Shown here piece after piece: positions 2,609 to 21,920 of a stretch of 58,658 bases of DNA. Below the pieces are notes generated by a model that was not told the DNA's origin, did no database searches, and was given only the letters and a program-made list of their open reading frames with translations. The stretch's first letter is position 1, and every line of letters begins with the position of its first letter. A program made the translations under genes and the position numbers. This DNA comes from Oscillospiraceae bacterium. GTDB lineage: Bacteria; Bacillota; Clostridia; Oscillospirales; Acutalibacteraceae. The stretch lies in NCBI GenBank assembly GCA_015066345.1, contig SVOQ01000002.1, positions 1-58,658 of the forward strand, in the 5' to 3' direction.

Positions 2609-2654
2609 AAGCCAACACCCCTCTCTTAAACAAAATATAATTGTTGCATTTTAA

Positions 2655-4088: not shown

Positions 4089-4828
4089 TTTTCTGCATCT
4101 CCGCCCTGTAAAGTATCGGAAATAATTTTCCCGTCCTCTATCCTTAAAACGCGGTCAGCCTTCCGAGCAATTTTTTCATCGTGAGTTATTATGACAAGGG
4201 TATTATTGAACTCGCGGCACAGCTCAGTGAGTAAATTGATTACCTCCTCGCTGTTTTTTGAATCAAGGTTACCCGTCGGCTCGTCCGCAAGTATGAGCTG
4301 AGGTTTTGATATAACAGCCCTTCCTATAGCAACCCTTTGTTGCTGTCCTCCCGACAATTGATTGGGAAAGCTGTACCCCTTGTTGTATAAGCCCAGACGC
4401 TTCATCAGAGCTTCAACCTCTGCAAAATCAGGCTTTTCGCCCGACACAACCTGAGGGAAAGCAATATTTTCTTCCACATTAAGGACCGGAATCAGGTTGA
4501 AAAACTGATAAACCATACCAATATTTTTGCACCTGAACACCGACAAATCAGTATCCTTCATTGAGTATATATCCTCGCCGCAGATATACACCTTACCCGA
4601 CGTAGGCTTTTCTGTTCCGCACATCATATGCATAAGTGTGGACTTACCCGAACCGCTTGTGCCTACAATTGCAACAAACTCACCCTTATGTATTGTCAAT
4701 GAAACGTCGTTAACCGCAATGGTATTCAAATTCCCTATACCGTATTTTTTTGTTGCGTGTTCAATCTTTATAACCTCACGGTCATCCGTTTCACAAATAA
4801 AATCTTCTGAAGTCTTTTTCATTCTCAT
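4085..4828 (-). CDS. ABC transporter ATP-binding protein (LolD/MacB type)
   Basis: This ATPase powers the FtsX permease encoded right after it. Walker A GTSGSGKST starts at residue 56, the signature is LSGGQQQR, Walker B is LILADEPTG followed by NLDS, and the H-loop is IITHD. This is the DEPTGNLD type found with FtsX permeases. I chose the ATG at 4828 because GGAG lies 6 bases before it; an in-frame ATG at 4849 has no visible ribosome site. The N-terminal 17 residues before the nucleotide-binding fold are acidic and unusual for the family. It is co-directional with the kinase genes. Confidence 0.9.
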   Translation of the reverse strand: MRMKKTSEDFICETDDREVIKIEHATKKYGIGNLNTIAVNDVSLTIHKGEFVAIVGTSGSGKSTLMHMMCGTEKPTSGKVYICGEDIYSMKDTDLSVFRCKNIGMVYQFFNLIPVLNVEENIAFPQVVSGEKPDFAEVEALMKRLGLYNKGYSFPNQLSGGQQQRVAIGRAVISKPQLILADEPTGNLDSKNSEEVINLLTELCREFNNTLVIITHDEKIARKADRVLRIEDGKIISDTLQGGDAEK

Positions 4829-4859
4829 ATCCGACTCCGTTTCCGCCATAGCTTTTAAA

Positions 4860-5978
4860 TCAATTTACTGATGTATGTAGGTTATATACTTTTTCCTCTC
4901 CGTTTTCCCACCAGGAAGCTCTTCCGTCATCGAGAACAACAAAATCAGTACCCTCGGGAAGGTTAACGGAATAAACCTCGGTCTTTTCTGTACCGTCAAG
5001 CTTCATTCTGTAAGCGGTGCATAATTTTCCGTCCTCACTTATAACGACCTCATCGGCAAAATACACCCAACCGTCTATAACCGTATATCCCGCAAGAATA
5101 TTTTCGCAAGCATACAACAAATCCCCATCCCAATTGTACGCGTAAAGGGTACTCTGCATTCCTACAGCAAGAGCCTGCGTTGTACATAAAAACATATCGT
5201 CAAAAACATACCAGATATGTCCTGAGAGATGATCCTCCTGCAGTGCCATAAGCTCATCGGTTTTCATATTATATAAGTACGAAAAAGTGTCATCGGTCGG
5301 AGGATAACTCACCTCGAAAATCACACTTTCCCGATTTGATGCTATAATTTCAGCATTCAAAAAAGAATCCCCGTATTGTGCATCGTAATCAGCAGATATA
5401 ACAGCCACCGTATCGGTTTGCTTGCTTTGTTCATCGGTGTAGGTGATACCGAATAAATACGTAGCCTTTTTATGTGAAGACATCATATTCTTGTCATAGA
5501 TAAAAAACTTATTATTACATCCGTCGGGATTTCCGGTAAGCCCAAAGGGTCCCTGATATTCAATTTTCACCGAAGAATCAATATAATTCTTTTTTACTTC
5601 GTTACTTTTGTCCTCCGGGACATCCTCTTCGGTTGTTTCAATATCATCTGTATACTGTCCGTTTTCATCAAAATAAGCATCATAGTTATCGTCAATATTT
5701 TTCCCCACGGAATCACTGTCTATATAAAAATACTTGTCAGAATCAGATGCTGATACAACCTTTGCGTAATACTCCATATTTTTGAAATCGTATCCCACTT
5801 TTTCTATAACGAAATCAGAGTCGGAATAATTCTCCTCCAGATATTCGGTAATTCCTCTTTTAGCAAGGAATTTAGAAACGGGATTCCCGAAAACCTCATT
5901 CAACAACCAGCCGACAATTACCGAAATAATTACCGTTAAAACAATTACGATGCTTATAATTATTTTCTTCTTTTTCAT
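4860..5978 (-). CDS. Membrane-anchored YfjL-like/propeller-like protein
   Basis: No enzyme function is recognised. The 372-residue protein has an N-terminal anchor (residues 5-27), a YfjL-like segment with GYDFKNMEYYAKV and DKYFYIDSDS that resembles small secreted Firmicutes proteins, an acidic linker rich in E and D, and a C-terminal half of short beta-rich repeats (YMKLDGTEKTEVYSV, DGWVYFADE) like DUF5050 propellers. The body should lie outside the cell. The start at 5978 follows GGGAGG; an upstream in-frame ATG at 6005 overlaps the hydrolase stop and is less likely. Position between the hydrolase and the ABC genes suggests an accessory extracellular protein of the transporter. Family calls are from pattern only. 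Confidence 0.6.
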   Translation of the reverse strand: MKKKKIIISIVIVLTVIISVIVGWLLNEVFGNPVSKFLAKRGITEYLEENYSDSDFVIEKVGYDFKNMEYYAKVVSASDSDKYFYIDSDSVGKNIDDNYDAYFDENGQYTDDIETTEEDVPEDKSNEVKKNYIDSSVKIEYQGPFGLTGNPDGCNNKFFIYDKNMMSSHKKATYLFGITYTDEQSKQTDTVAVISADYDAQYGDSFLNAEIIASNRESVIFEVSYPPTDDTFSYLYNMKTDELMALQEDHLSGHIWYVFDDMFLCTTQALAVGMQSTLYAYNWDGDLLYACENILAGYTVIDGWVYFADEVVISEDGKLCTAYRMKLDGTEKTEVYSVNLPEGTDFVVLDDGRASWWENGEEKVYNLHTSVN

Positions 5979-6001
5979 AAATATAGCCTCCCGTATTATT
6001 T

Positions 6002-6847
6002 TCATAGCGATTTTTCAAACATTCGGTCAGCCCAATCACTGTTTTCAAAGAAGTCTGCCGAAATCGTGTGACCGCCTTTTTCGTATATTTTTACCTTCAG
6101 GTCACCGTTGTTATTTTCAATCCTTTCGGACAAAAGTGTATTGCTTACCACCATCAGCTCGCAATCATCCTTTGCCCAGGATATATAAAAAGGGGTTTTT
6201 GAAAGTGTTTTATAATCCTCGTCCGTCAGACGGCGCACATAGGGGTCATCACATTTATCCATAGTGATAGGATACTCCGAATTATAGGTGTAGGCCATTG
6301 AAATTACTGCAGCCGCGTATTTTCCGGGATTTCTGAGGCACTCATAAACACATCCGTAGCCTCCGTGAGAAGTGCCCGCAAGGTATATTCTGTCAAAATC
6401 AACGTTGCCGTATGTATTCTGAAGGTAGCTTATTATACCGTCAAGTGCCCGACTGTACTCCGGTCTGTTGTATTCACAAGCAACATCCAGATGAATTGCA
6501 ATTTGATGGCATTTGTGTGCATCAAGCTTTTTAATCAGTTTAGAAAACTCATTCATCTGAATATCATTCTTACCTGCACGGTTCATACCGTTCCCGTGTT
6601 GATAAATCACAACGGGGAATTTTCCTTTTTCATCAATTGGTTTACACCTGAAAAAATAACCTTCACCCGTGGTTTTATCACAGTAAAAATACTTTTGATA
6701 TGAGGGATAAAGCAATGTAACCCCCTGCTTTATGACCCCTGAGCTTTCTACACTTGCAGTTAATTTCCGCTTGTATTTTTTTATTTTAGGTGCTCTGCTA
6801 AGCATAGCCCTCATAACGACGTTTTCCACCTTATTAATTAACGTCAT
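6002..6847 (-). CDS. Alpha/beta hydrolase (esterase or peptidase-like)
   Basis: A serine hydrolase without signal peptide, so probably cytoplasmic. Its 281 residues follow the alpha/beta hydrolase order: HGNGMNR oxyanion-side loop near 84, nucleophile S160 in GTSHGG, acid D227 or D228 in SWAKDDCEL, and H260 in KGGHTISADFF. This arrangement is like prolyl-oligopeptidase-type and acetyl xylan/feruloyl esterase-type domains, but the substrate cannot be named. It starts 15 bases after the kinase stop and is likely in the same transcript. In some Firmicutes stress operons such hydrolases accompany peptide-sensing ABC transporters; that link here is inference. Confidence 0.78.
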   Translation of the reverse strand: MTLINKVENVVMRAMLSRAPKIKKYKRKLTASVESSGVIKQGVTLLYPSYQKYFYCDKTTGEGYFFRCKPIDEKGKFPVVIYQHGNGMNRAGKNDIQMNEFSKLIKKLDAHKCHQIAIHLDVACEYNRPEYSRALDGIISYLQNTYGNVDFDRIYLAGTSHGGYGCVYECLRNPGKYAAAVISMAYTYNSEYPITMDKCDDPYVRRLTDEDYKTLSKTPFYISWAKDDCELMVVSNTLLSERIENNNGDLKVKIYEKGGHTISADFFENSDWADRMFEKSL

Positions 6848-6862
6848 ACAAACACGCTCCGC

Positions 6863-8623
6863 CTATTTTTTCTTTTTTATTTCAAAATAGAATCGTACTT
6901 TTCCGTTATTGCTGTCGCAGCCATATTCAGCGTTATGAAGAATAAAAATATTTTTGGTTATCGCAAGGCCAAGCCCACTGCTCCCCATTGTACTGCGGTT
7001 TACCGAATCGGATTTGTAAAATTCATCCCAAATCTTTTTGATTTCTTTTTCATCAATGGTGCTTCCGTCATTTTCTATTTCAAAACGCACCTTTTTATTG
7101 CTTTGGGTCAGAGTAACAGCAATATCCTTTTCCGCATATTTTACTGCATTGGAAATAAAATTGCTCATAGCAATTCTCATCATTTCCAAATCTGCTTCGG
7201 CAACAAAATCATCCGTATTCTCAACGTCGGACGGATTCAGCTTCACGTTCAGCCCACGCTCGTTGATTATATTTTTCATACGGCCGAGAATACTTGAAGA
7301 CAGAGAATAAAAGTCTACGTCCTCCCAATGTACAGGCTTTACACCCGCCTCCATATGAGAAAGCTCAAGTAAATCCGTAACCATTTTATTCATATGGTCC
7401 ATTTCATTCATCATAATTCGGGTAACTTCTTCCTTATCATCCTCGGGAAGGTAATCCCAATTTTCCACATAACCTCTTGTTATTGCAAGAGGAGTCTTTA
7501 ACTCGTGAGCAATACTCCTTGTAAGATCGCGGCGATTACTCTCTGCAGTCTGTTGCTTTTTATAGCTGTTGCGCATAACAAAATATACTATGATTATTGC
7601 CACACACGCAAACACCGCAACCGCAATATAAACACTTATCAAATCCCTTACTGCCATGCTCAAGGGATGAAATACATATGCACAAGAATATGTATAAACA
7701 TTCTCGCCGTAATAATTGCCGATTTTACTTGTTATCCTTATAGAGGAAGTTAACAAGCCGTCATCATAAGCCTCATAAAAATTTTCCGGATCCGCCTCAA
7801 GCTGATCAAAGCCCAGCTCACACATTTCCCTTGCCTCTTGATTATACTTTTTGTTCCAGCCTTCGATATTATCAATATAATGCTTGGAAATATTGTGGTT
7901 AAAGTCATCGGGCGCATAATCAAACCACTCTTCAAAATCAACATATCCTTTATAACTCTCGTCTTTTTCGGGAATATAGCCATAGGTTTCGTGGCGGGTA
8001 TATTCGTACCATGTTAATTTTTGTGCATAAACAAAATTTTCGTCACAGGTACCATCAACCTTCAGCGCGTTATATGCAACGTCAACATTATCCTTACCGT
8101 ATTCCGAGCAACGATACAAAGCGTGTAAAGCATTACTTTTATAGTTCTCCAAATCATCCGATTCTGTATAACTCAATCCGCTGTACTCCTCGCTGAACTT
8201 ATCGTCCAAAAGCAAAACACGTACCTCATGCTCCTGCACATCGCTTGTATTTTTTTCAAACACAATACAAGGCTGAAAATATGCTACTGTTTCACCCTTA
8301 TTGTTTTTCAGCTCACTATGAAAGCCTACATCAGAAGAAATAAAAGGTTTATTGACTATATTTTCGTGTGCCAGATAAAATGACGGTATTATACCCATTG
8401 CATTTTCCGGGTCATAAAGCGTTTTGTATTCCTGATTTTCACCGACACTATAATAACTTGCAATTTCGTTACATAAATAGTTGGGGGCACCCTTTATTTC
8501 ATCATACAAATCGCTTTTAATCCACTCAGCTCTCTGTACCGCAAGAAGGGCACATCCGAATAAAGACACGCACACAAGAAGCACCGCGAGTTTAAATGTG
8601 TTTTTACGGTGTTTTTTATCCAC
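6863..8623 (-). CDS. Sensor histidine kinase with large extracellular domain
   Basis: This is the membrane kinase of the two-component system. The 586-residue protein has TM1 (about 11-30), an extracellular domain of about 300 residues, TM2 (about 340-362), and, with no HAMP domain, HisKA with phospho-acceptor H373 in SIAHELKTPLA. HATPase_c follows with the N-box SNFISNAVKYAE, acidic IENDGS and GSSGLGLAI. The start is GTG at 8623, with GGAGGAG overlapping the end of the regulator gene. The extracellular part is the key oddity: its blocks YLAHEN, FQPCIVFEKN, GTCDENFVYAQKLTWYE and CAYVFHPL recur in three nearby membrane proteins without a kinase (11057-12502, 14580-15620, 15610-16698). The ligand is unknown. 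Confidence 0.92.
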   Translation of the reverse strand: MDKKHRKNTFKLAVLLVCVSLFGCALLAVQRAEWIKSDLYDEIKGAPNYLCNEIASYYSVGENQEYKTLYDPENAMGIIPSFYLAHENIVNKPFISSDVGFHSELKNNKGETVAYFQPCIVFEKNTSDVQEHEVRVLLLDDKFSEEYSGLSYTESDDLENYKSNALHALYRCSEYGKDNVDVAYNALKVDGTCDENFVYAQKLTWYEYTRHETYGYIPEKDESYKGYVDFEEWFDYAPDDFNHNISKHYIDNIEGWNKKYNQEAREMCELGFDQLEADPENFYEAYDDGLLTSSIRITSKIGNYYGENVYTYSCAYVFHPLSMAVRDLISVYIAVAVFACVAIIIVYFVMRNSYKKQQTAESNRRDLTRSIAHELKTPLAITRGYVENWDYLPEDDKEEVTRIMMNEMDHMNKMVTDLLELSHMEAGVKPVHWEDVDFYSLSSSILGRMKNIINERGLNVKLNPSDVENTDDFVAEADLEMMRIAMSNFISNAVKYAEKDIAVTLTQSNKKVRFEIENDGSTIDEKEIKKIWDEFYKSDSVNRSTMGSSGLGLAITKNIFILHNAEYGCDSNNGKVRFYFEIKKKK

Positions 8624-8626
8624 TCT

Positions 8627-9298
8627 TTACTCCTCCCACATATAGCCTGTCTTTATAACGGTTTTTATGTTGTTCTTACACGTCCCCAACGCGGCTCTCA
8701 GATTTTTTACGTGGGTATCGACGGCTCTGTCGTAGCCGTCATACTCCTCGCCCCACACGTAATCTAAAATCTGGTCCCTTGAAAGCACCTGATTTTTATT
8801 TTCTAAAAAGCAAATGAGCAAATCATATTCCTTTGGTGCAAGAGTCACTACCCTGTCATCGACTGTAACAAGTCTTCTTGCAAGCTCTATTTTCAATGCT
8901 CCGGCCCGTATCACACCGTTTTGAACCACCAGCCCGCAGTATCTTTTTATGAGTGCATTTATTTTTGCCTCAAGCACGGGCATTGACACCGGCTTTGTAA
9001 TATACTCATCCGCACCTACCTCATAACCGTTTACAATATCATATTCCTGATTTAATGCTGTTAAGAAAATTACGGGAACATCGTATTTCTTACGTATCTT
9101 CCTGCACACCTGAAGTCCGTCCTGACCGGGCATCATAATATCAAGGATTATAATATCATATGTCTTTTTATCAATTGCGATTTCAGCTTCATCGCCATTT
9201 GCAACAGCATCCACCTTAAATCCTTTTTGGGTAAGATAGCAACTGACTATGTTTCTGAGCGCTCTTTCATCCTCAGCCACCAAAACATTGTAACCCAT
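8627..9298 (-). CDS. OmpR-family response regulator
   Basis: DNA-binding partner of the adjacent kinase. The 223-residue protein has a receiver domain with acidic pair E9-D10, phospho-acceptor D53 in IIILDIMMPGQDG, T in FLTA and K in ITKPVSM, followed by a winged helix DNA-binding domain (LAPKEYDLLICFLEN, ending IKTVIKTGYMWEE). The ATG at 9298 is preceded by GGAAGGGG; a longer in-frame start at 9337 adds 13 unlikely residues. Kinase and regulator are 3 bases apart. Likely targets are the surrounding secreted-protein and transporter genes, but no clear repeat operator was seen between 9299 and 9402. Confidence 0.94.
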   Translation of the reverse strand: MGYNVLVAEDERALRNIVSCYLTQKGFKVDAVANGDEAEIAIDKKTYDIIILDIMMPGQDGLQVCRKIRKKYDVPVIFLTALNQEYDIVNGYEVGADEYITKPVSMPVLEAKINALIKRYCGLVVQNGVIRAGALKIELARRLVTVDDRVVTLAPKEYDLLICFLENKNQVLSRDQILDYVWGEEYDGYDRAVDTHVKNLRAALGTCKNNIKTVIKTGYMWEE

Positions 9299-9402
9299 AA
9301 TCAAACCCCTTCCGATTATTTTTCTGATAAAAACCATAATATTGCATACGGCGTTGCTTTAACAGTATCGTCTTATTTGCAATAATGCTGCCGTTCTGCA
9401 AA

Positions 9403-11010
9403 TCAGCTGTTCAATGCCGTATTAACAACATTCTGATATGATGATACATCTATTTCCTCAGAAACGCAACCGTTAGCTGCGTAAATCTGAGCCGTGTCCG
9501 CACTCTCGTGGGTATTTGCCACACGCTCTGCCATAGCAACATCAAGAGCATCACAGACTGCGTCACCGTCAAGGTCACCCTTAACAATTACAGTATACGC
9601 ACCCTCCGACTCTCCGTCACTGTTATAGATATTGACCACGGACCCCGTACCGTAAAACTCAACACCGTTTTCGGAATACGACGGTGTTGCCTCGACGGTA
9701 TAACCTGAAACAGTTATAATATCCGCTATATTCCGTGCCCCGTTATCTGAGGTCATAATACACATATTTTCATTATCAATAAAGGCTTCCTCGCTTTTAA
9801 TATACATAGAATACAAAGTATACGGAACATTATACTGCTCTGCATAGCGATGTGCCGCACTATCGGGATAGCAATACAGCATTTCAAGAATCTCCCAATA
9901 TCCGTTAAATCCTATTGTTTCAAGGCTTTCGGGTAAAGAAATCTCCCTGTCAGAGAAGAACATAAGACCCTCTTCCTCAATTGTTTCAAGTCCCTCAGAA
10001 AAGTTGATTTCAACAAGATTGTTATTATTCAAAAAAGCTCTGTAACTGATTGTTCTGATATGCGAGGGTACGCTGAGAGATTCAAGATACATATAATCTT
10101 CAAACGCTCTTGCTGAAACGGTATCTCCTCCCTCAGGTAAAATAAGGTCTGTGAGCAGCTTGTTATTCACATACAGCTTGCCGCCGTATGTAAGCGGATT
10201 ATCCTGAAATTCTATATTGTAACACCAGTTTGCCGGGTCATCAATGTATACGTTTATGTTACCTTGGGTCTGAGAAAAAGTATTTTTCTCTATTTTTGAA
10301 AGTGAACTGTCAATAAATATGTTTTCAAGATAAAAGTTATCATACGGATAATCGTGTATACCGAAAGCACCCTCGGGAATTGTATGTACGCCCTTAAGTG
10401 TGAGATAGTGTGCCAAACTAATGCCCGAGTCCACCATAAAATCCATAGAGTCGTATATTACCATTTCGTTTGTATGCGCACCCGTAAATGCATAGGGTTC
10501 GGTTTTAACCGCATTTCCGTAAACCGTCATCCACGCTGTCCCCATAGGGAAAAAAGCATAATAGAATGCATAAGACCTGATTTTTATGTTTTGATCAGTT
10601 GCCTGAGGTTCACCGAAGCAAACACCATCACTGAAAAAAGCCTCATAGAAGGCATATGGCTCTATCGTTACGTCCTTTGCGTAAAAATTGACGGGGCACG
10701 TAAATACGCAGGACATAAATGCACCTTCACCGATATATGTCAGATGTGAAGGAATATAGTCAATGTAAAAACCTGTACCCTCGAAAGCGTGGGGGGCTAC
10801 CTTTGTTACGTTGTAACCGTTGACAGTATCGGGTATATACAAGCTCGTGTAATCCTCGGTGAATCTGCAGCCCACCACGGTATAAGTCTGACTCGTACTG
10901 TCAAATTCATAAATAATACCCTCAAACTCCATTTCTGCCGCACCGCTTGAAATTGCCATCGCAGAAAATGCAAGAAATGCCGAAAGTAAAATACATAAAA
11001 TCTTTTTCAT
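9403..11010 (-). CDS. Secreted BspA-type leucine-rich repeat protein with dockerin-like tail
   Basis: A surface or secreted protein. From 11010 it has 535 residues: signal peptide 1-25 (ends SSGAAE), then BspA/LRR_5-type repeats to about 390 with IPDTVNGYNVTKVAPHAFEG and LESLSVPSHIRTISYRAF as examples. A beta-sandwich-like segment follows (about 400-475), then a tail with one good calcium loop, GDLDGDAVCDALD, and a second, degenerate one (AANGCVSEEIDVSSYQNVV). This tail is closely similar to that of the protease at 12601-14511. The ATG at 11010 follows AGGAGG by 9 bases; a GTG at 11019 abuts the ribosome site and is unlikely. No cohesin partner is in the window, so the tail's role is open. 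Confidence 0.85.
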   Translation of the reverse strand: MKKILCILLSAFLAFSAMAISSGAAEMEFEGIIYEFDSTSQTYTVVGCRFTEDYTSLYIPDTVNGYNVTKVAPHAFEGTGFYIDYIPSHLTYIGEGAFMSCVFTCPVNFYAKDVTIEPYAFYEAFFSDGVCFGEPQATDQNIKIRSYAFYYAFFPMGTAWMTVYGNAVKTEPYAFTGAHTNEMVIYDSMDFMVDSGISLAHYLTLKGVHTIPEGAFGIHDYPYDNFYLENIFIDSSLSKIEKNTFSQTQGNINVYIDDPANWCYNIEFQDNPLTYGGKLYVNNKLLTDLILPEGGDTVSARAFEDYMYLESLSVPSHIRTISYRAFLNNNNLVEINFSEGLETIEEEGLMFFSDREISLPESLETIGFNGYWEILEMLYCYPDSAAHRYAEQYNVPYTLYSMYIKSEEAFIDNENMCIMTSDNGARNIADIITVSGYTVEATPSYSENGVEFYGTGSVVNIYNSDGESEGAYTVIVKGDLDGDAVCDALDVAMAERVANTHESADTAQIYAANGCVSEEIDVSSYQNVVNTALNS

Positions 11011-11056
11011 AAACAGCACCCTCCTTAAGCAAAGCTGAAAAACTGAATGAGAATTT

Positions 11057-12502
11057 TTATTTTTGTTTCTTTTTTATTGCTTTTTTTATACAACATAACA
11101 ATAAACCGAAGGAAACACCGATAAAAGAAACAACCATATAAACAATCGTATAAATAGGTAATATCGCCCATTCCCTGTCCCAAATAGGTGCTACAGCCCA
11201 CGAAATCGCAAACAAAACACCGACAGTAACAGGATAAGTCAGTTTAAAAACAAGCTTAATATCAAAAACACCCGTAACAATTGATGCGAGCATAACCATA
11301 TACCCCATAAGTACAAGAAAATCAAAGCCATAGAAATTGCCTATGGGTGTTATTTCCGCAAGCAGTGGCAGCACAACAAGACCTATTGCAGAAACAGCTA
11401 CACCTATTGAATACTTTAATATACGTTTTTTCTTTTCGACACTTAAACTATTAAACTTTTTCATCACACAACCCTCTTTCTTGTGTTTCTTAGTAACCAA
11501 AAGTATTAACACTGCTGAAGCAATTGCCGATACCGCAAAAAAAGCACAGAAAACTATTGCCTCAGCGGGTATCGCCTGTAGCGGTCTGAAAACAATTGCG
11601 CTTGTAACGAAGTAGTCTTCACCCAGGGGCTCAACCCTTTCTATTGCGTACACCTCTAAACTTTTATCGTCGTTGCGCTTCTCAAGAAACGAGGCATCGC
11701 AACCTGCTTTCAGATATTCAGCGGATATTTCTTTACATCTTTCCTTTGCTTCTTCTTTTGTTTTATCTGTCGCGCCATAGTATTCGGGTAAATTTTCCGT
11801 CCGCATCACAAATTTTTTATCGGTAAGCGTATTGAGCCACTCATCCACAGGCACACCTTTTTTCTCCGCTGAGGGTGACTTTGACTTGTATGTACAAACA
11901 CTATCAAACTCATCGTACCACACCATCTTTTCAACATAAATAAAGGTGTCGTCACAAGTACCGTATATTTCCAAGGGCTTCCCCATACTCGGGTCATAAC
12001 CATCCGCCTCAATAGCCTGTGAACAATAATAACCAATTACTTCAAAAAGGTACGAGTTATCCTTCCACTCCTCCTCAACCCCGGATACCGCCTTGCTTGT
12101 CAGAGTAAAGTCCTCATCAAATAATATAATTCGGTAATCGGGCTTGTTGTTTACGGTTTTACCTTGAAGAAGCAAGAAAGGTACATACTCTGCAAGAAGC
12201 TCACCGTCCTTGCTTCTCAACTCACTGTGAAAGCTATACTCCGGAGTTTCCCAATAATTCTTCGGATTTTCAAAGTCATAGCCGAGATAAAAGGCTTTTA
12301 TGGGTTCCGCACCGTCAGCCAAAGCATCCTTCATAACCGAGACGGGATTTTCTTTGGTACTTACTATGTATTCTGCATCAGCTATTCTTTGCTCAGCATC
12401 GCGGTATTGCTGTTTGAAGCTGATAAAAACAGCTGATATCATTATGCAAACAGATACAACCGCAGCCGACACACAGCAAACAATTTTTACTGATTTTTTC
12501 AT
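11057..12502 (-). CDS. Receptor-like membrane protein A (kinase-less sensor paralogue) with fused 4-TM module
   Basis: The 481-residue protein falls in two parts. Residues 1-340 copy the layout of the kinase's sensor: TM1 (8-28), an extracellular domain with FYLGYDFENP, ALLEYVPFLLL-like and GTCDDTFIYVEKMVWYDE blocks, VFRPLQ, then TM2. From about residue 347 a four-helix membrane module (MKKFNSLSVEKKKRILKY onward, to KKKQK) is appended; no kinase domain exists. The codon for that internal Met is the ATG at 11464 and has AGAGGG 7 bases before it, so the module may be a separate gene that became fused, or be made separately. It lies between the protease and the LRR protein. Closest in-window relative is protein B. 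Confidence 0.75.
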   Translation of the reverse strand: MKKSVKIVCCVSAAVVSVCIMISAVFISFKQQYRDAEQRIADAEYIVSTKENPVSVMKDALADGAEPIKAFYLGYDFENPKNYWETPEYSFHSELRSKDGELLAEYVPFLLLQGKTVNNKPDYRIILFDEDFTLTSKAVSGVEEEWKDNSYLFEVIGYYCSQAIEADGYDPSMGKPLEIYGTCDDTFIYVEKMVWYDEFDSVCTYKSKSPSAEKKGVPVDEWLNTLTDKKFVMRTENLPEYYGATDKTKEEAKERCKEISAEYLKAGCDASFLEKRNDDKSLEVYAIERVEPLGEDYFVTSAIVFRPLQAIPAEAIVFCAFFAVSAIASAVLILLVTKKHKKEGCVMKKFNSLSVEKKKRILKYSIGVAVSAIGLVVLPLLAEITPIGNFYGFDFLVLMGYMVMLASIVTGVFDIKLVFKLTYPVTVGVLFAISWAVAPIWDREWAILPIYTIVYMVVSFIGVSFGLLLCCIKKAIKKKQK

Positions 12503-12600
12503 TGTTATCCCCGCCTTCCGTAGAGCGATCTTTTATTTACAAGCCTATTATATATGCCCGATGTGTAATTTCTGTGTTCTTTAAAGATAAATTTTATTAT

Positions 12601-14511
12601 TTATGATGCCAGAGCCTTGTTAACCACATTTTGATACGCTGATAAATCCATATCCTCCGACACAAAGCCGTTGGCGGCATAGCACTGAAGCCTACCGAAG
12701 CTTTTGTGCCCGTTTGTACCAAGCTCCGTTTCGGTCGCATCAAGCACATCGCATACACCGTCACCGTTGGTATCACCCTCAACCACAACGGTAAAATCGG
12801 TGGTCGTGTCATCATTCTGCTTAACGGTAAGGGTGGCTCCCGTTACCAAAAACGGCAATTCCCTTTGCTGGGTATCCTTGATCGCAAAATCGCTTTTTGA
12901 AAAGATATTAAAGTTATCTTTAAGATACGAAAAATCGTTATCCGGGGTAATAATAACGTTATCCTTAAAGTTCATATAGACTTCCTCATCCCCGGTATAC
13001 ACGCACTTTGTAAGTGCCTGAACACACACATTGCTGATTTTCGACTTGTAATAGTATGTCATATCACGCCACGTAGTGCCGCCGTTATTACTGAGGAAGC
13101 TCTCGCCTTCATGGTATACAAAGTTTCTTTTCTCATCATTCTCAAAGGCAAGCATGGGCTTTTGGGTATCGTGTGACACCTTTAACACAACCGAAAAAAT
13201 CATTCCGGGCTCAAGAAGCACCTCTTGCGGAAGATGAATTGTATGATAACCGCCGTTTTTTATCCTGAGGCTGTGGGTAGCAACCAAATCACCTTCAACC
13301 GGTGAGGTATAATCCTCGGGTAAGCCCGTATAAATACTTACGGTAACATCCGTATCGGGCTGTAAGGTATATGTAGCCACATCCGTAATTGCCTCGTAAT
13401 TTTTTGCCTTAAAGACATTTGAATACAGCGGCTCATAGCCTGCACTCAACACCGACATATAACCTTGACCGTTATATGTGTAATTATTTGTATAATCATC
13501 AGCCTTCTGAGTTGTGAAGCCTACGGGCGCTCTAAGAGTCATATCCTCATAGGAAATCCAGAAATATCCGTCATTTCCCCAATCATCGCCCCAACTGTTT
13601 TTGCACAACCACGCACCGCTGCTATTCGGAGCATATTCAGGAAGAAAATTATCGACGGAATAATTATCATCCCAACCGATAATGGCAACCATATGATTCG
13701 AAATCTTTTCGGTATTATAGTTATAAGCATAAGTAGCTTTATTGTACATTGTTTTATCACTGTAATAGCTTATTCCTACCGCTCCGTTTTCCATAATCCA
13801 TTGCTTAATGGATGCATCATCCAAAAGTTCCTCACAAGACTTGATAACCACGCCCGAGCCTTTGTCATAACGCACACTCTCATCATAATTACCCATTGAT
13901 GAATGTGAATAGGGGTAAAAACGGTAAGTGCTTTCCTTGGCAAGACCGGACCAGCGTGACAGGGCAGCAACAACATCATCCGAATTACCGGCACATTCAC
14001 TGCCTGAATAGGGATTTTCAACAATGTAGCCTTCACCGTAATTCAAATCATTCACATCAGTGGATTGGCTGTTTTTTGAAAACCACACCAAATGCGCCTC
14101 TGAAAAATCCGTGTCCGCATATTCACTGTTTCCGTGCATTATGCTGTTACTTTCAAGGGAAGCCACACAGGCGAATGCCCAGCAATTACCGGCACTGCCC
14201 TGAGAGGTAACGGGGCTGACATACCCGTAATCCCTTAAATCATACGAATCGGGCACAGAAACAGAGGTAGTAGCAGCATAACAAACATCCTCGGATTTCC
14301 TTTGTAAATCCCCATACGCCTCGTTTATATCCAATTGTACTTCTTTTCCGTTTTCATCAACATATTTATAATTTACGTATCCGTATTCACTCGGTTCACA
14401 TTCCACCCTGCGGTACAGTCTGAAATGAACCTCATCCTGCGCATAAGCAGGTAACACCGCAACAGAAAAGCTTAAGCTCACACATAAAGCAATCGCTATT
14501 ATTTTTTTCAT
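12601..14511 (-). CDS. Secreted papain-like (C1A) cysteine protease with lectin-like domain and dockerin-like tail
   Basis: A predicted extracellular peptidase. The 636-residue protein has a signal peptide (1-24, ends AYA), a short propeptide region, then a C1A fold with catalytic C110 in SQGSAGNCWAFA, H273 in NHMVAIIGWDDNY and N305 in CKNSWGDDWGNDGYFW; the glutamine of the oxyanion hole is Q104. Residues about 340-460 match the lectin-like domain that often follows C1 peptidases in Clostridia (YSNVFKAKNYEAITDVATY). The end carries GDTNGDGVCDVLD plus a degenerate second loop, nearly the same as in the LRR protein. The ATG follows GAGGAGG. It sits between receptor-like proteins C and A; processing of cluster proteins is a reasonable but untested idea. 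Confidence 0.9.
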   Translation of the reverse strand: MKKIIAIALCVSLSFSVAVLPAYAQDEVHFRLYRRVECEPSEYGYVNYKYVDENGKEVQLDINEAYGDLQRKSEDVCYAATTSVSVPDSYDLRDYGYVSPVTSQGSAGNCWAFACVASLESNSIMHGNSEYADTDFSEAHLVWFSKNSQSTDVNDLNYGEGYIVENPYSGSECAGNSDDVVAALSRWSGLAKESTYRFYPYSHSSMGNYDESVRYDKGSGVVIKSCEELLDDASIKQWIMENGAVGISYYSDKTMYNKATYAYNYNTEKISNHMVAIIGWDDNYSVDNFLPEYAPNSSGAWLCKNSWGDDWGNDGYFWISYEDMTLRAPVGFTTQKADDYTNNYTYNGQGYMSVLSAGYEPLYSNVFKAKNYEAITDVATYTLQPDTDVTVSIYTGLPEDYTSPVEGDLVATHSLRIKNGGYHTIHLPQEVLLEPGMIFSVVLKVSHDTQKPMLAFENDEKRNFVYHEGESFLSNNGGTTWRDMTYYYKSKISNVCVQALTKCVYTGDEEVYMNFKDNVIITPDNDFSYLKDNFNIFSKSDFAIKDTQQRELPFLVTGATLTVKQNDDTTTDFTVVVEGDTNGDGVCDVLDATETELGTNGHKSFGRLQCYAANGFVSEDMDLSAYQNVVNKALAS

Positions 14512-14579
14512 GTTTTTCCCTCCTCACAATTATCGGGCTTAAAAATCACACGTTAAATTCAATTCTTTTACCTATAGAG

Positions 14580-15620
14580 TTACGCTTTTTTTGCTTTTTT
14601 ATTGATAAAGATAATACCGACTATAATCGCAATTGTTCTTGCAATCCCTATACCGTATCCCAAAAATGTGTAGGATAACTTTTCCGCAGCAATACGCATC
14701 GGATGGAAAACGTAGGCACAGGAAAAAACATAATCATTTTCGGGATTATCGTCCCCGTCAGCAAGCGTTTTTGTTAAATATACGGTTGATGTAATCAACC
14801 CCTCGTCAACCAAGCAACCATCTGTTTCGGAAATAGCTGTGCCGTTTTCAAGCATTTTCTTTTCACAGACAGCCTTCGCCTCATTATTAAGAGCTGTGTC
14901 CGCATACTCCACGGCAGAAACAGAGCTTATATCAAGACGGTAGTTGTTGGCGACGTCACCCTTGATACCGAACCATTTATTGAAATCAACACTACCCTTT
15001 TCGGTATTATTTTCGCTTGGTGTAAAGGTATATGTTGCCAATTTCTCATTGTCATACCACTCAAGCTTTTCAAGGTAAACGTAATCACTGTCGCAGGTTC
15101 CGTTTACGTACACGGTGGTGTTCACCCTGTCAAAATCCCCTTTGCCGTAGCCTGTAGTGTTTTCCAGACTGCGAACGGCACGACGGATATATCCGTCACG
15201 CTTGCTGTAGTATCCAAGGTCACTGTATTCTTGCGTAAACTCATCGCCCAAGGGCAGAATACGGATATCCGAATTGTCTTTATCCGGATTCTTCTCAAAA
15301 AGGATGTACGGTTGTGAAAAAGCCACGATTTCGCCTTTTTTGTTTTCTACCGTACTGTAAAAGCCCATATCCATCGACAACGGGTCAAGCTGATAAATTT
15401 TCAGATTTTCGTGTGAAAGATAAAATGCCTTGACTATATTCTCTGAAGTGTAGCGATCGTTTAAATTTTCGTACAGCTCCGTAGCATCTTCACTATATCT
15501 GCTGTAGCTGTCAATAATATCCTTAGCCTCAACTAACACCAAAGCACCGCGAGCGGTTTCGCTTACTAAGATAACACCTATTATTAAAAGCACTATTTTT
15601 ATCCATCTCTTATTTTTCAT
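14580..15620 (-). CDS. Receptor-like membrane protein C (kinase-less sensor paralogue)
   Basis: A 346-residue bitopic protein with TM1 (about 7-25), a large extracellular domain and TM2 near the C-terminus, ending in a short lysine-rich tail (INKKAKKA). Of the three paralogues it is closest to the kinase sensor: FYLSHENLK, FSQPYILFEKNPD, VNGTCDSDYVYLEKLEWYD, LITSTVYLTK and FSCAYVFHPM align block by block with YLAHEN, FQPCIVFEKN, VDGTCDENFVYAQKLTWYE, LTSSIRITSK and YSCAYVFHPL. There is no enzymatic domain. Start uncertain: the ATG at 15620 overlaps the end of protein B by 11 bases; a second ATG at 15629 is also in frame with AGAGG just before it. Translational coupling to B is likely. Confidence 0.75.
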   Translation of the reverse strand: MKNKRWIKIVLLIIGVILVSETARGALVLVEAKDIIDSYSRYSEDATELYENLNDRYTSENIVKAFYLSHENLKIYQLDPLSMDMGFYSTVENKKGEIVAFSQPYILFEKNPDKDNSDIRILPLGDEFTQEYSDLGYYSKRDGYIRRAVRSLENTTGYGKGDFDRVNTTVYVNGTCDSDYVYLEKLEWYDNEKLATYTFTPSENNTEKGSVDFNKWFGIKGDVANNYRLDISSVSAVEYADTALNNEAKAVCEKKMLENGTAISETDGCLVDEGLITSTVYLTKTLADGDDNPENDYVFSCAYVFHPMRIAAEKLSYTFLGYGIGIARTIAIIVGIIFINKKAKKA

Positions 15621-16698
15621 ATTGAGCATCAACCTCTTTTACTTCGCCTTCGGAAACAACAGGCTTTATGTTTGATTCACGCTTTTTGTAATAAATAATG
15701 CATACCGCCAATACCAACCACGCTGCAAACACTACCGCGCAGCCTATGTATGTACCTGTAAGCTTTGAACACGCAATTTGCAAAGGACGGCAAAGGTAAA
15801 CACTTGAAACAATATTGCCGTCACCTATATCAACACTCTTTTCTATAAAAAACTTACTCAGGTACTTAATATCACTGGTCGACGTAATTTCATCAATGTT
15901 TACTGTGTTTTTTCTGTATTTTTCGGAAAGCTCCTTGCACATACTTTCAGCCTCCGAGTTTTCGAAGGGCATATCCCGATAATATGAGCCTACAACATTT
16001 TGGGCACCGATGTAATACTCTTTATAATCCAGCGAATCCACCCAATTATCAAAAGATATTTTACCGAGAGCTGTATTGTTATGCTCAGGAGTATACGTGT
16101 ATGTTGCGCTTCCCGTTTCGGAATGCCAAACAATTTTCTCGGGATAAATGAAGTTATCGTCACAGGTTCCGTATATTTCGAAATCAGTTGCATAACCGGA
16201 ATAGAAGTCACTGTTTTTATGTGCATTTACACAAGCATCCAACTGGTATAATGCGGTGGTATAATCCTCACCTTCAATCTTAAAAGTTGTGCCTGTACCG
16301 TTGTTGCTTTCATACGTTATGGTTGCTTTTTCATCCCAAAGAATAAAACGGGTATCTTCAACTCCCTGCTTCGTTTCACCCTTTACTACAATAAAGGGCT
16401 TGTATGAAGCAACGACCTCACCTTTTGCGTTTATCATTTCGCTGTAAAACTCACCCTCTGTAAAATTCGGGTTTTCGAAAGCATAACCTGTATAAAAGGA
16501 GTGCACCGCATCAAGGCCGTCACCGTAGGCCTCCTTCATCACGTCCGTCGCACAAACCTTGTTTTTTATAATGTATTCACTTCCCTCGGCAAACTGCGTT
16601 GCCGTTGTATGGGTAGCAATACCGCAAAACGCACTCATCCCTGCTGCCAGAATAATTGTTATTATGATTACAAGCGGACGATAAATTGTTTTTTTCAT
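15610..16698 (-). CDS. Receptor-like membrane protein B (kinase-less sensor paralogue)
   Basis: A 362-residue bitopic membrane protein: TM1 (about 6-27), an extracellular domain of about 280 residues, TM2 (about 312-335) and a polar cytoplasmic tail of 25 residues (KKRESNIKPVVSEGEVKEVD). Conserved blocks are FYTGYAFENPNF, YKPFIVVKGET, IYGTCDDNFIYPEKIVWH, EAESMCKELSEKYRK and LCRPLQIA. It groups with protein A, whereas C groups with the kinase. The ATG at 16698 follows GGAG. It begins 31 bases after the GLUG protein gene. Function unknown; a receptor, co-receptor or sink for the same class of ligand as the kinase is the simplest reading. Confidence 0.75.
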   Translation of the reverse strand: MKKTIYRPLVIIITIILAAGMSAFCGIATHTTATQFAEGSEYIIKNKVCATDVMKEAYGDGLDAVHSFYTGYAFENPNFTEGEFYSEMINAKGEVVASYKPFIVVKGETKQGVEDTRFILWDEKATITYESNNGTGTTFKIEGEDYTTALYQLDACVNAHKNSDFYSGYATDFEIYGTCDDNFIYPEKIVWHSETGSATYTYTPEHNNTALGKISFDNWVDSLDYKEYYIGAQNVVGSYYRDMPFENSEAESMCKELSEKYRKNTVNIDEITSTSDIKYLSKFFIEKSVDIGDGNIVSSVYLCRPLQIACSKLTGTYIGCAVVFAAWLVLAVCIIYYKKRESNIKPVVSEGEVKEVDAQYEK

Positions 16699-16729
16699 AA
16701 AAGCCACTCCATTCATTAAATAACTTTTT

Positions 16730-18292
16730 TTATTTGTTGACCTTTCTTTCTAAAAGTGCTGCATCGAGCACATCAACCACACCGTCAGCATTAACGTCGC
16801 CTTTTGCTATTAAGGCTTCTTCGGTAAGCTCCGACCCTTCATCCTCAGACGATTCGCCGAGAGCTGTTTTTATCATTTTTTCATAATCACTTTCATCAAC
16901 CACTTTGTCGCTGTTGAAATCGCCCGTACCGCCTGAAATATATATTTTGTTGCCGTTCAGATTTGTACATTCTTCCACTCTGTAAGCTTCATTGTCAGAG
17001 AGAATGGGGTGTGACCCCGTTGAATAATCAAGCTGTCCCCACACAAGCTCGTCATAATCCTGGTTATTCTGAAGCCAATACGCTACTTTTCCCGACTCTA
17101 AATCCTCCTTCGTAATTTCTTCAACCCAGGAGGCATATCCGCCATTTGGTCCCTGACGGCTGTGACCGATACCGGTCTGCTCATAACCGCTGCCGTCTGT
17201 TGCCGAGCCTTTCAGGTAAAAATTCCCGTTTCCGTAAACAAGACCGCTATCGTTACCGCCACTGAATCCGCCTGAATAAACAGGAGCATAAACCTTACCG
17301 ATGTTAAAGCAGTTATATATCATAGCCATGGACATATCATTAAAAACAACCGAGCCGATTACACCACCTGCACCGCTTTCCGTTGCGGTTACCTTGCCTG
17401 AATTGTATGAGTTATAAAGATACGTGCTGAAATCCAGCAAGCCGAAAACACCGCCTACAACAGTTCTTCCCTGCACGTCTCCTGCGTTGAAATTGCGATT
17501 GGTTCCATCCCAACTTCTTTCAGCACTCAAAAATCCTCCGATTCCGCCCACGTATTTATCACCCGTAACAGAACCGGTATTTTTACAATCCCGTATTGTT
17601 CCTTCGCTTTCTCCGCAAATACCGCCGACGTATTCCTCTCCACGTACTTTGCCCGTAAAGCTACAGCAATAAATATCCCAATAAGATATGCCCGCAACAC
17701 CGCCTACATCATTGCAGTCACCTTCACCCTCGACCACTGCCGAAACATTACAATTTCTGACAGAGCCCGATGTATAACCGCATATACCACCCGTAGCGGA
17801 ATAGGACCTGAAATAGGAGTCCTTTACATTAAGATTATTAATATCGCGTTTAACGAAACCGAACACTCCTGCATAATCACTGCCGGATGGACAATACAAG
17901 CCGCTTATTGTATGACCTCTGCCATCAAAGCTTCCGCTATATCCGTATACTCCGTTGAAGGCTATGGGTGTCCACTCAATAAGCTTTGAAGCACCAGAAA
18001 CCACTTCGCCATTTTCGAGCACCTTTTCGTTTACCGTTATATCATTGACAAGCACCGCATTGGCATCCTTGTTCCGAGGAACTCCTTCAAGCTGACCGTT
18101 AACAAGCTGTGCAAACCAATATAATTCCTCTTTGGTTGATATTTCGTAGGGTGAGCCCGCCGTACCGTCACCCTCCGAGGGTGCACAAGGCGTTATTTCT
18201 GCCGCCGTTGCGCTTACGGGTACACCTGCTGCCAACACTCCTATTACCACAACTGTCGCCAACAATCTGAGTATGGGATTTCTTTTCTTCAT
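16730..18292 (-). CDS. Secreted GLUG-repeat protein with two-loop dockerin-like end
   Basis: A 520-residue exported protein with a signal peptide (1-30, ends SATAA). Residues about 45-400 are glycine-rich repeats of the GLUG/beta-helix kind: VGGICGES, YVGGIGGF, VVGGVFGLL, GAGGVIG with C/N-rich turns, typical of Firmicutes surface proteins with IgA-peptidase-like or adhesin-like helices. The C-terminus has two calcium loops, GDFNSDKVVDESD and GDVNADGVVDVLD, separated by an acidic insert (SSEDEGSE). The ATG at 18292 follows AAGGCGG; an in-frame start at 18340 adds 16 basic residues and is less likely. It is the first gene of the receptor cluster, with 112 bases of AT-rich DNA upstream. Confidence 0.8.
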   Translation of the reverse strand: MKKRNPILRLLATVVVIGVLAAGVPVSATAAEITPCAPSEGDGTAGSPYEISTKEELYWFAQLVNGQLEGVPRNKDANAVLVNDITVNEKVLENGEVVSGASKLIEWTPIAFNGVYGYSGSFDGRGHTISGLYCPSGSDYAGVFGFVKRDINNLNVKDSYFRSYSATGGICGYTSGSVRNCNVSAVVEGEGDCNDVGGVAGISYWDIYCCSFTGKVRGEEYVGGICGESEGTIRDCKNTGSVTGDKYVGGIGGFLSAERSWDGTNRNFNAGDVQGRTVVGGVFGLLDFSTYLYNSYNSGKVTATESGAGGVIGSVVFNDMSMAMIYNCFNIGKVYAPVYSGGFSGGNDSGLVYGNGNFYLKGSATDGSGYEQTGIGHSRQGPNGGYASWVEEITKEDLESGKVAYWLQNNQDYDELVWGQLDYSTGSHPILSDNEAYRVEECTNLNGNKIYISGGTGDFNSDKVVDESDYEKMIKTALGESSEDEGSELTEEALIAKGDVNADGVVDVLDAALLERKVNK

Positions 18293-18404
18293 TTTTGACA
18301 CCGCCTTTTGATTTTTGAGTATGGCTTTTCGTTTAATCACATTGTATATAAAAAATATGTAATCTTTGTGTTGAACTTCGAAAAAATTTAATATTTAACA
18401 CAAA

Positions 18405-19460: not shown

Positions 19461-19476
19461 TTTCGGTAATCTCCTT

Positions 19477-19929
19477 TTAAATATTGAACGCTTCTTTAAA
19501 TGCGTGATAATAGCTTCGTGTTACGTCAACAACAGAATTTTCTGTTAATGTCAGCTCAAATTTCATCGAAAGCGTAGGCATTATCTTTTTAATTTTGTTT
19601 TTTGCCACTATCACACTGATGCTTATACGGAGAAAGTTAGTTTTATCAAGCTGCTCCGAAAGTTTATAAAGTCTTTCGTTTGCATAGTAATCATTTTTAT
19701 CGGTATGAACAATTATCTGGTGGCCAAAGGACTCTATGTAAACAATATCGTTGCAATCAACTACAACTCTCTCATTAGTCTGCTTATCTTTTACGATAAG
19801 CTTTTCTGCAAAGCCGTTTACTTTGCTTAAAACCAAATCCGCCGAGTCATCAGTTTCTATTCCGTGCTGATGCAATTCACTCTCTATTCTTTCATAATCA
19901 TCATCGGTTATATTAAGTTTAATTCTCAT
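19477..19929 (-). CDS. LytTR-family DNA-binding regulator (first copy)
   Basis: A 150-residue transcription factor without a receiver domain. The N-terminal third (KLNITDDDYERIESELHQHG) is a small variable domain; from about residue 50 it is a LytTR domain with IVYIESFGHQIIVHT, NERLYKLSEQLDKTNFLRIS and IKKIMPTLSMKFELTL. LytTR proteins of this size in Firmicutes usually control themselves and a neighbouring membrane protein, here the MacB-like protein. The ATG is preceded by AAGGAGG. The usual LytTR direct repeat with about 21-base period was not found upstream, unlike for the second copy at 25237. Confidence 0.88.
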   Translation of the reverse strand: MRIKLNITDDDYERIESELHQHGIETDDSADLVLSKVNGFAEKLIVKDKQTNERVVVDCNDIVYIESFGHQIIVHTDKNDYYANERLYKLSEQLDKTNFLRISISVIVAKNKIKKIMPTLSMKFELTLTENSVVDVTRSYYHAFKEAFNI

Positions 19930-21221: not shown

Positions 21222-21309
21222 ATAATCCCCACTTTCTCTGTATTAACAATTCGTAATAAGCGTAATGGTATCAATACGAACAAAGCAAAGCTATTTATAA
21301 TAGCTGTCG

Positions 21310-21900: not shown

Positions 21901-21920
21901 TACTGTTACACCCCTTCCGC

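Follow-up and report, generated by a model that had tools for sequence, protein, structure and literature searches.

Two-component systems are usually drawn with one homodimeric sensor per regulator. The locus considered here, which lies in a window of 58,658 nucleotides from a gut bacterium of the Oscillospiraceae, raises the question of why one sensor kinase should sit among three membrane proteins that carry its extracellular domain and none of its kinase. Our answer – one on which we are evenly divided – is that these proteins (A, B and C) serve as subunits without a kinase of their own, entering mixed complexes with the one kinase and modulating it there, in the way that RocA does with CovS and FasC with FasB.

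The kinase (HK) comprises a helix, an ectodomain of ~290 residues (7649-8533), a second helix, HisKA and HATPase_c; Pfam gave no HAMP match. Read by eye, its H, N and G boxes are kept and IAHELKTPL is intact, and the response regulator gene lies 3 bp before it. HisKA and HATPase_c, intact boxes and an adjacent regulator together mark HK as a two-component sensor histidine kinase. Domain and homology searches thus confirm the initial annotation in placing one kinase and one regulator amid a paralogous family. The order of transcription is GLUG protein, B, C, papain-like protein, A, LRR protein, regulator and HK (Table 1); the strict alternation of ectodomain copies with secreted proteins that had been described does not hold, as B and C are adjacent and overlap by 11 bp.

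Table 1. Features of the locus, in order of position in the window
Feature	Position	Strand	Basis
Rhomboid-family membrane protease	2012..2608	-	Pfam Rhomboid 78.3 bits
FtsX-like permease	2655..4088	-	Pfam FtsX 57.2 bits
ABC ATPase, LolD/MacB kind	4085..4849	-	NCBIfam LolD 227 bits, under cut-off 308
Membrane-anchored protein, YfjL_N/DUF3139 start	4860..6005	-	Pfam
Alpha/beta hydrolase-like protein, 15 bp behind HK	6002..6847	-	Weak Pfam matches below cut-off
HK, sensor histidine kinase	6863..8623	-	Pfam HisKA 48.9 bits, HATPase_c 56.5 bits
Response regulator, OmpR/PhoB type	8627..9337	-	Pfam Response_reg and Trans_reg_C
BspA-type LRR protein, signal-like N-terminus, weak dockerin-like tail	9403..11019	-	Pfam LRR_5 79.4 bits
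A, type 1, extra four-helix membrane tail	11057..12502	-	BLASTP to B and HK; hydropathy; tree
Papain-family protease with lectin-like domain, signal-like N-terminus	12601..14511	-	Pfam Peptidase_C1 91.8 bits, Lectin_like 80.5 bits
C, type 2, two helices, short cytosolic tail	14580..15620	-	35% identity to HK; HK side of tree
B, type 1	15610..16698	-	BLASTP to A and C; tree
GLUG-repeat protein with dockerin	16730..18340	-	Pfam Dockerin_1 38.6 bits (cut-off 22.9), Glug 37.5 bits
Membrane protein, 351 residues	18405..19460	-	No Pfam family over cut-off; 74% identity in second species
LytTR DNA-binding protein, head of gene run	19477..19929	-	Pfam LytTR 75.2 bits

The recurrence of the HK ectodomain in three kinase-less neighbours, each with its reading frame at the position given in Table 1, is evident from BLASTP: HK and C share 35% identity over 288 columns (E 2e-50), B and A 30% (E 3e-43), C and B 27% (E 1e-23) and HK and A 26% (E 1e-15), identity to HK among the kinase-less copies being 24-35%. 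All six ectodomain pairs score z 21.0-59.6 (Smith-Waterman, 300 shuffles), against -1.3 to 3.2 in 20 control comparisons (100 shuffles each), for which five further extracytoplasmic stretches were taken from the locus. Chance similarity and shared secreted-protein composition are thereby excluded; both the recurrence itself and the expectation that the copies resemble one another more than unrelated secreted proteins do are borne out. The similarity takes in the entire ectodomain, beyond the short blocks first listed, with 25 columns invariant across the four copies, including two cysteines (GTCD and EAxxxC). The blocks do reflect homology, although HK reads FYLAHEN and not FYL[GS], and its P-block is QPCIV. 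Hydropathy places a hydrophobic stretch on either side of the ectodomain in each copy, and four extra in A.

The family had been called unnameable, and neither Pfam nor NCBIfam returned one for the ectodomain; Foldseek against the PDB and a PDB sequence search gave no lead. Structure prediction, proposed for all four copies, covered the HK ectodomain and A, whose models place the main elements in the same order, though with rows common to both alignments; four unrelated folds are ruled out by the clear sequence homology. In the model of full-length A the tail is of low confidence, and VIA-align gave mixed rows.

A critical issue is whether a kinase remnant is hidden behind A, B or C. The kinase profile found nothing in A and C and scored B at E 1.2, and tblastn with the HK kinase domain over the first 25 kb returned only HK and a chance-level piece inside it (E 0.81), which rules such a remnant out. 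Nor did A, B or C match any Pfam family at E 1 or any NCBIfam family at E 0.01. Being without HisKA and HATPase_c, they are not sensor histidine kinases; judged by sequence, they are homologous to the HK ectodomain and second helix and lack the kinase domain, which is the first mark of an accessory sensor of the RocA or FasC kind. A DHp-like domain is also absent: B and C stop shortly after helix 2 and A ends in its four-helix tail. The tail of B ends in QYEK, an ending shared with a second species of the genus. A 135-residue membrane protein of that species, considered as a free form of the A tail, was rejected (E 30).

In the second species, a MAG of the same genus (G006), the locus is syntenic and its single kinase is accompanied by six kinase-less copies, against three here. 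In both genomes that have full kinase-less copies, the locus also holds a kinase copy and a regulator, one of each. Type-1 and type-2 genes are tight neighbours in B-C and, in the second species, in B'-C', D'-E' and A'-F'; the trees of the two types are congruent in 832 of 1000 bootstraps, on three clean pairs with a chance rate of 1 in 3. The pairing of C with HK and of A with B, first seen in the shared motifs, matches the two sides of the tree. The kinase-less copies do not form one clade (p-AU 0.00025), and neither do C, F' and E' (p-AU 0.004), the groups having been named after the tree was seen. For B and its orthologue dN/dS is 0.25; for A against D' and A' it is 0.12-0.27, a rough figure since dS is >1. 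C' and F' carry frameshifts that may reflect decay or an error of assembly, and no type-1 gene adjoins HK'.

Beyond the genus, the nearest relative comes from a Lachnospira MAG (L022), which has one kinase of this type, intact. The ectodomain occurs in 50 of 115 genomes of another family (f66), and loci were read in 49 of these 50. Where the f66 ectodomain kinase stands alone its phospho-acceptor histidine is intact (24/24), as it is in the Lachnospira copy and in all three additional weak matches, which lie on other contigs. Beside a second kinase the histidine is lost in 21 of 23 copies (Tyr in 17, Ser in 3, Lys in 1), against none of the 24 solo copies and 0/1 in L022, and by this difference the f66 HK1 proteins class as tandem pseudokinases. 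The two tandem copies that keep it are in G874 and G852, and in G852 the N box of the partner kinase looks degenerate. The partner's histidine is present in all 21 tandem loci where the contig reaches it. Every solo locus (24 of 24) has a regulator, as do 21 of 23 tandem loci; in the other two the contig stops within the partner gene. Of the 23 tandem junctions, the 13 read at sequence level have an ATGA overlap, which suggests matched amounts of both proteins; several other junctions show small gaps by coordinates. In the five pairs aligned, the ectodomain is complete on the dead copy but shortened on its active partner, where the GTCD block is missing. One dead copy (G864) has lost the ATPase domain; in G861 its sister copy is joined in frame to the partner kinase through a 23-base deletion. 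A single-base slip does not explain the fusion: 23 bases, counted by eye, are gone, including the stop and the ribosome site. The fusion may yet be an assembly error.

How proteins without a kinase might act on HK can be sketched as follows. A, B and C would derive from the sensor kinase, whose ectodomain and membrane helices were duplicated, and would have lost, or never received, the kinase part. Through the ectodomain and membrane helices they may join HK in mixed dimers or larger assemblies, within which their ectodomains would set the kinase/phosphatase balance of HK; one kinase and one regulator could thereby read several or changing cell-surface ligands. The idea of heteromeric or co-receptor sensing, raised in the initial annotation, draws support from f66, where the same ectodomain is carried by dead kinases that stand next to an intact one; the direct contact between HK and A, B and C that it implies is something we infer, and so are what they bind, which way they shift the output and which genes respond (probably those of this run). 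Also in favour of the subunit reading are the one kinase and one regulator at the locus of both genomes, the scatter of the kinase-less copies over more than one clade, the low dN/dS of B, the tight type-1/type-2 pairs and the precedents of RocA-CovS and FasBC. Since the f66 HK1 proteins retain DHp they are a parallel to A, B and C and not the same case, and their support is weakened by the tandem cases falling, 22 of 23, in one clade: a tree-aware test of histidine loss has three independent pairs (two agree, one ties), with which significance is unreachable. Kinases usually pair through DHp, and its absence from A, B and C counts against pairing with HK; the two f66 tandem copies that keep the histidine, the frameshifts of C' and F', and HK' without an adjacent type-1 gene, likewise count against the subunit reading.

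It is unlikely, in our view, that A, B and C are instead decoys or buffers, which would bind the same ligand as HK, or tie HK up in dead dimers, and so damp the signal or set a threshold. They do carry the same ectodomain without an output, and in the tight pairs B-C and D'-E' neither member has a kinase. A pure sink, however, needs neither the four-helix tail of A nor the conserved tail of B, and the arrangement in the five f66 pairs aligned, with the full ectodomain on the dead copy and the shortened one on its active partner, is the opposite of a decoy.

The neighbouring genes bear on another explanation, namely that the ectodomain has a non-signalling surface role, binding a product of the locus (the papain-like protease, the LRR protein, the GLUG protein or ABC/FtsX cargo). 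This strikes us as doubtful, and so does the accompanying idea that the kinase-less copies act as anchors or chaperones or confer immunity, with HK merely monitoring the same target. In its favour the genes form a single run with gaps of <=98 bp; identity between the two species is 53-63% for B, two of the secreted proteins and the ectodomain of HK, and 83% for its kinase domain; and the FtsX-like permease occurs in 2 of 22 genomes of the genus, only the two with the ectodomain family. A consensus scan for promoter-like (67 against 51.7 expected) and terminator-like sites (23 against 15.0 expected) was uninformative. The secreted neighbours had been described as dockerin-tailed. The GLUG protein is the one of three above the Pfam cut-off for Dockerin_1; the LRR protein scores 12.7 bits (cut-off 22.9), and the dockerin-like tail of the papain-family protease, seen by eye, is unmatched by Pfam at E 1. 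The genome has one cohesin match over cut-off (33.4 bits), in a search that also matches 2 of 14 control genomes, including E. coli. In G006 the GLUG-repeat protein is missing from the corresponding place, and the membrane-anchored protein has no counterpart between the hydrolase and ABC genes. Against a surface role, the f66 and Lachnospira ectodomains are on kinases beside a regulator, and no dockerin, papain-like or LRR proteins were recognised by eye in the gene lists inspected, so that the older role was probably signalling; the proposed general link with dockerin-tailed secreted proteins gains no support from these lists. Lipoprotein-like ORFs occur in the same lists.

That the copies are relics or recombination stock – functionless duplicated ectodomains or a store of ectodomain cassettes – fits the frameshifts of C' and F' and the variable copy number, but is made very improbable by the low dN/dS of B and (roughly, given dS) A, by the frames being intact in the window and by an identity to HK that leaves little for recombination.

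Kinase-less ectodomains that work with a kinase-bearing relative are familiar from plant receptor-like proteins, which are unrelated to A, B and C and offer an analogy only. Bacterial systems come closer. RocA of group A Streptococcus is a kinase-inactive membrane protein, akin to sensor kinases, that interacts with CovS and promotes the activity of its system (PMC7028121). RocA keeps DHp, CA-like parts and a six-helix sensing part, whereas A, B and C lack the kinase region, carry the kinase's own ectodomain and are present in three to six copies in the kinase locus. FasB and FasC of the same organism, served by one regulator (FasA), form a mixed dimer in which FasC is a proposed sensing pseudokinase, the two being thought to meet through DHp (PMC12675982). 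FasBC is, on that account, very like the f66 tandem pairs, although FasC keeps a needed histidine and its kinase domain is dispensable, whereas f66 HK1 has mostly lost the histidine and keeps the N box; unlike FasBC, A, B and C are without any DHp. In Caulobacter DivL, a kinase relative, a tyrosine replaces the phospho-acceptor histidine (PMC4211667), as in 17 f66 tandem copies; DivL senses phosphorylated DivK, and the part of the account available gives no sign of tandem partnership with a paralogous kinase. In Corynebacterium the kinase-dead sensor ChrS acts through the related active kinase HrrS, and a truncated ChrS failed to pair with HrrS in a two-hybrid assay (PMC9491836), which counts against the mixed-complex reading; as reported, the ChrS case concerns an evolved strain with a frameshift, unlike A, B and C.

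The further claim that no system with this layout has been described stands in part. The multiplied ectodomain had no match in the literature searched by keyword and judged by title and the start of the abstract, but FasBC and RocA-CovS are close in kind. Accessory partners of an active sensor kinase are already known (RocA, FasC), and what is new here is the sensing part multiplied into an array.

The subunit reading may be extended, tentatively, to a modular receptor in which one kinase subunit is served by expandable kinase-less ectodomain subunits of two subfamilies, with type-1/type-2 pairs duplicating together. On this modular reading f66 might conceivably show the route: an active kinase, then a dead one beside an active paralogue, then loss of the ATPase domain and finally fusion. 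One ectodomain family spans, in living species, the intact solo kinase, the kinase-dead partner and the kinase-less array. The separation of sensor and kinase roles, mostly argued from single cases, thus becomes testable with small clonable sets, as does the steering of a kinase by kinase-less sensors without a DHp domain. If the modular reading is true, new ligand specificities would arise by the copying of ectodomains and not of whole two-component systems.

The sensor histidine kinase HK belongs to a single run of 15 minus-strand genes (2012-19929) with intergenic gaps of -11 to 98 bp. Three membrane proteins of this run, A, B and C, share with HK an ectodomain of about 290 residues flanked by two helices. 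All six pairs among the four ectodomains proved homologous, with z scores of 21-60 over shuffles, as against -1.3 to 3.2 for 20 control comparisons with further extracytoplasmic stretches from this locus; four of the six were also put through BLASTP, with E values of 2e-50 to 1e-15. The conserved blocks listed by the initial annotation were right in the main, with small errors only. Twenty-five columns are invariant across the four copies, including two cysteines, a possible disulfide pair, the second of which is not conserved in every copy from f66 (a separate family). HK retains the boxes expected in an active kinase; in A, B and C no kinase remnant was found by kinase profile or tblastn.

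Further features of the genome deserve mention. The four-helix membrane tail of A has no Pfam family and occurs also on A', its counterpart in a second species. The run that holds the sensor also encodes two proteases, one a rhomboid and the other secreted and papain-like, which might make or cut the sensor's ligand. On another contig, a single ORF joins an N-terminal cohesin match to repeated domains, fibronectin-like by eye, and is a possible partner for the dockerin tail.

Coordinates of features in the window and in related loci (L-numbers, fetched loci; G-numbers, genomes; HK1, f66 ectodomain protein of tandem loci; HK2, its adjoining partner kinase)
Feature	Sequence	Coordinates	Strand	Remark
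HK	window	6863-8623	-	HisKA + HATPase_c; sole sensor kinase of run
OmpR-type regulator	window	ends 3 bp before HK	-	one in run
A	window	11057-12502	-	kinase-less
B	window	15610-16698	-	kinase-less
C	window	14580-15620	-	kinase-less
Membrane tail of A	window	11057-11470	-	
Rhomboid protease	window	2012-2608	-	
Papain-like protease	window	12601-14511	-	
Cohesin-match ORF	G000 (own genome) contig 47 (L056)	70010-70381		
Frameshifted genes	G006 (second species) contig 11 (L024, L023)	about 12125-14940 and 21263-22344		C', F', LRR'
Unfused HK1 and HK2	G864 (L114)	4573-7070		
HK1-HK2 fusion	G861 (L115)	4499-7054		
Separate tandem pair	G852 (L132)	3289-6231		
LytTR-like and membrane protein	L057	11401-12281		
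LytTR-like and membrane protein	L063	553-1436		

The window's own genome holds four ectodomain-profile matches (HK, A, B, C) and no other; a full-length profile also picks up the kinase portion of HK and, elsewhere in the genome, three weak matches taken as kinase-like. Among 22 genomes of the genus the ectodomain family is present in two: this one and G006, apparently the water-deer-colon MAG JAGASD010000026.1, whose syntenic locus (primed names) has one kinase and six kinase-less copies, C' and F' being frameshifted. Of these 22 genomes the same two have the window's FtsX permease, and the gene cluster thus looks like a patchy accessory set. LRR' is a third frameshifted gene of this MAG locus; the three frameshifts are either decay or assembly errors. 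With profile A3, one match (the own genome) was found among 398 genomes sampled from the larger total in the window's family, and four among 391 drawn from the class (the own genome and three of genus g214); 348 drawn from the phylum yielded one match, the own genome. A3 detects fewer distant copies than the later profile A6, enlarged with the relatives found (A3 matched 23 of 85 g214 genomes, A6 matched 40 of those listed in its search), so the window's family may hold distant copies that escaped the search. A peptide-pattern scan of 84,980 species genomes returned two loci, JAGASD010000026.1 and a Lachnospira MAG (L022) whose one ectodomain copy belongs to a kinase; its His box is intact, and a regulator lies directly before it.

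In a tree of 60 ectodomains (the pieces of C', which match C at 61-63%, were left out) the ten usable copies from the window's genus group together as a clade (100/98), with the Lachnospira copy as sister (100/96), and divide into type 1 (A, B, A', B', D') and type 2 (HK, HK', C, E', F'). Monophyly of the kinase-less copies was rejected (p-AU 0.00025), as was a single clade of C, F' and E' (p-AU 0.004), both for groups named after the tree was seen. Transcription order is B(1) C(2) A(1) HK(2) in the window and B'(1) C'(2) D'(1) E'(2) A'(1) F'(2) HK'(2) in G006. Four tight neighbour pairs, type 1 then type 2, are separated by -11 bp, -23 bp (with C' at its mechanical start), 2 bp and about 23 bp. 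This last spacing is a hand count with F' begun at its start in another frame (178 by script from the open part of F'). The type-1 and type-2 trees were congruent in 832 of 1000 bootstraps, although with three clean pairs chance expectation is 1 in 3. This hints at duplication pair by pair and at contact between the two types in the membrane. Across the two species the ectodomain of HK shows 55% identity, as compared with 83% for the kinase domain; B stands at 57%, the papain-like protein at 53%, the LRR protein at 63% (one piece) and the regulator at 87%. For B dN/dS is 0.25, a rough value, dS exceeding 1 in most genes.

A lineage separate from the window's offers a parallel. In f66, A6 matches 50 of 115 genomes, spread over two of five genera; the order containing f66 (188 genomes, 49 matches) yielded no additional family. 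The His box was read at the main locus in 49 of the 50, the fiftieth being G912, where, as in G911, the contig ends before any kinase. Solo kinases, with no second kinase within the fetched stretch, number 24, all with intact His and regulator. A second, weaker match turned up in eight genomes: in five it is HK2 itself, and the other three (G815, G871 and G821, on other contigs; left out of the tree and of the His-box tally) are kinases with a regulator and intact His. At 23 tandem loci HK1 adjoins the related HK2 (422-496 residues by mechanical start), whose ectodomain, in five pairs aligned, is shortened and without the conserved GTCD block. At the His position HK1 carries Tyr at 17 loci, Ser at 3, Lys at 1 and His at 2 (G874, G852); G866 (Tyr) was excluded, its contig ending before any partner is visible. 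Of the 21 loci whose contig extends as far as the HK2 box, 20 have IAHELKTPL there, the exception being G852 (VAHELESPL and a degenerate N box). The N box of HK1 is kept save in G864 and G861, both of which lack this portion: the HK1 of G864 stops at 394 residues, with a fragment of the DHp region at its end, and its sister G861 has the same shortened HK1 joined in frame to HK2 through the loss of 23 bases. An ATGA overlap marks all 13 junctions inspected among the 23, chosen because the frames meet; the remainder include small gaps by coordinates. In this lineage, then, the ectodomain protein has mostly lost kinase function beside a partner kinase. At two loci a LytTR-like protein (by eye) and a small membrane protein adjoin the tandem kinases; a LytTR gene and one for a membrane protein likewise stand at the head of the window's run. 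The ectodomain copy of G852 looks intact.

The link of partner kinase with His loss is striking, yet few events lie behind it: one clade (100/99) holds 22 of the 23 tandem copies plus G866, with G852 elsewhere; changes between active and dead number at least 4 (5 with letters kept separate); and a relatedness-aware test found 3 independent pairs, 2 agreeing and 1 tied, so that significance was unreachable.

The favoured reading of the kinase-less copies, rated about as likely as not, is that they act on HK as sensor subunits within mixed complexes. Because A, B and C have no DHp domain, contact with HK would have to run via ectodomains and helices, and this absence is the main weakness of the reading; the f66 HK1 proteins, which keep DHp, are a parallel only. 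That the copies are decoys is unlikely, and non-signalling surface roles linked to the secreted proteins seem slightly less probable still. That they are relics is very improbable.

Several known systems are comparable. FasB pairs with FasC, a proposed pseudokinase, and FasA is driven by both (PMC12675982); in DivL the His site is occupied by Tyr (PMC4211667); and the pseudokinase ChrS works via HrrS, its truncated form failing to pair in a two-hybrid assay (PMC9491836). The f66 pairs resemble further members of this kind. The window's array of kinase-less ectodomain copies is a variant of which the literature searched, judged by listings, yielded no described example.
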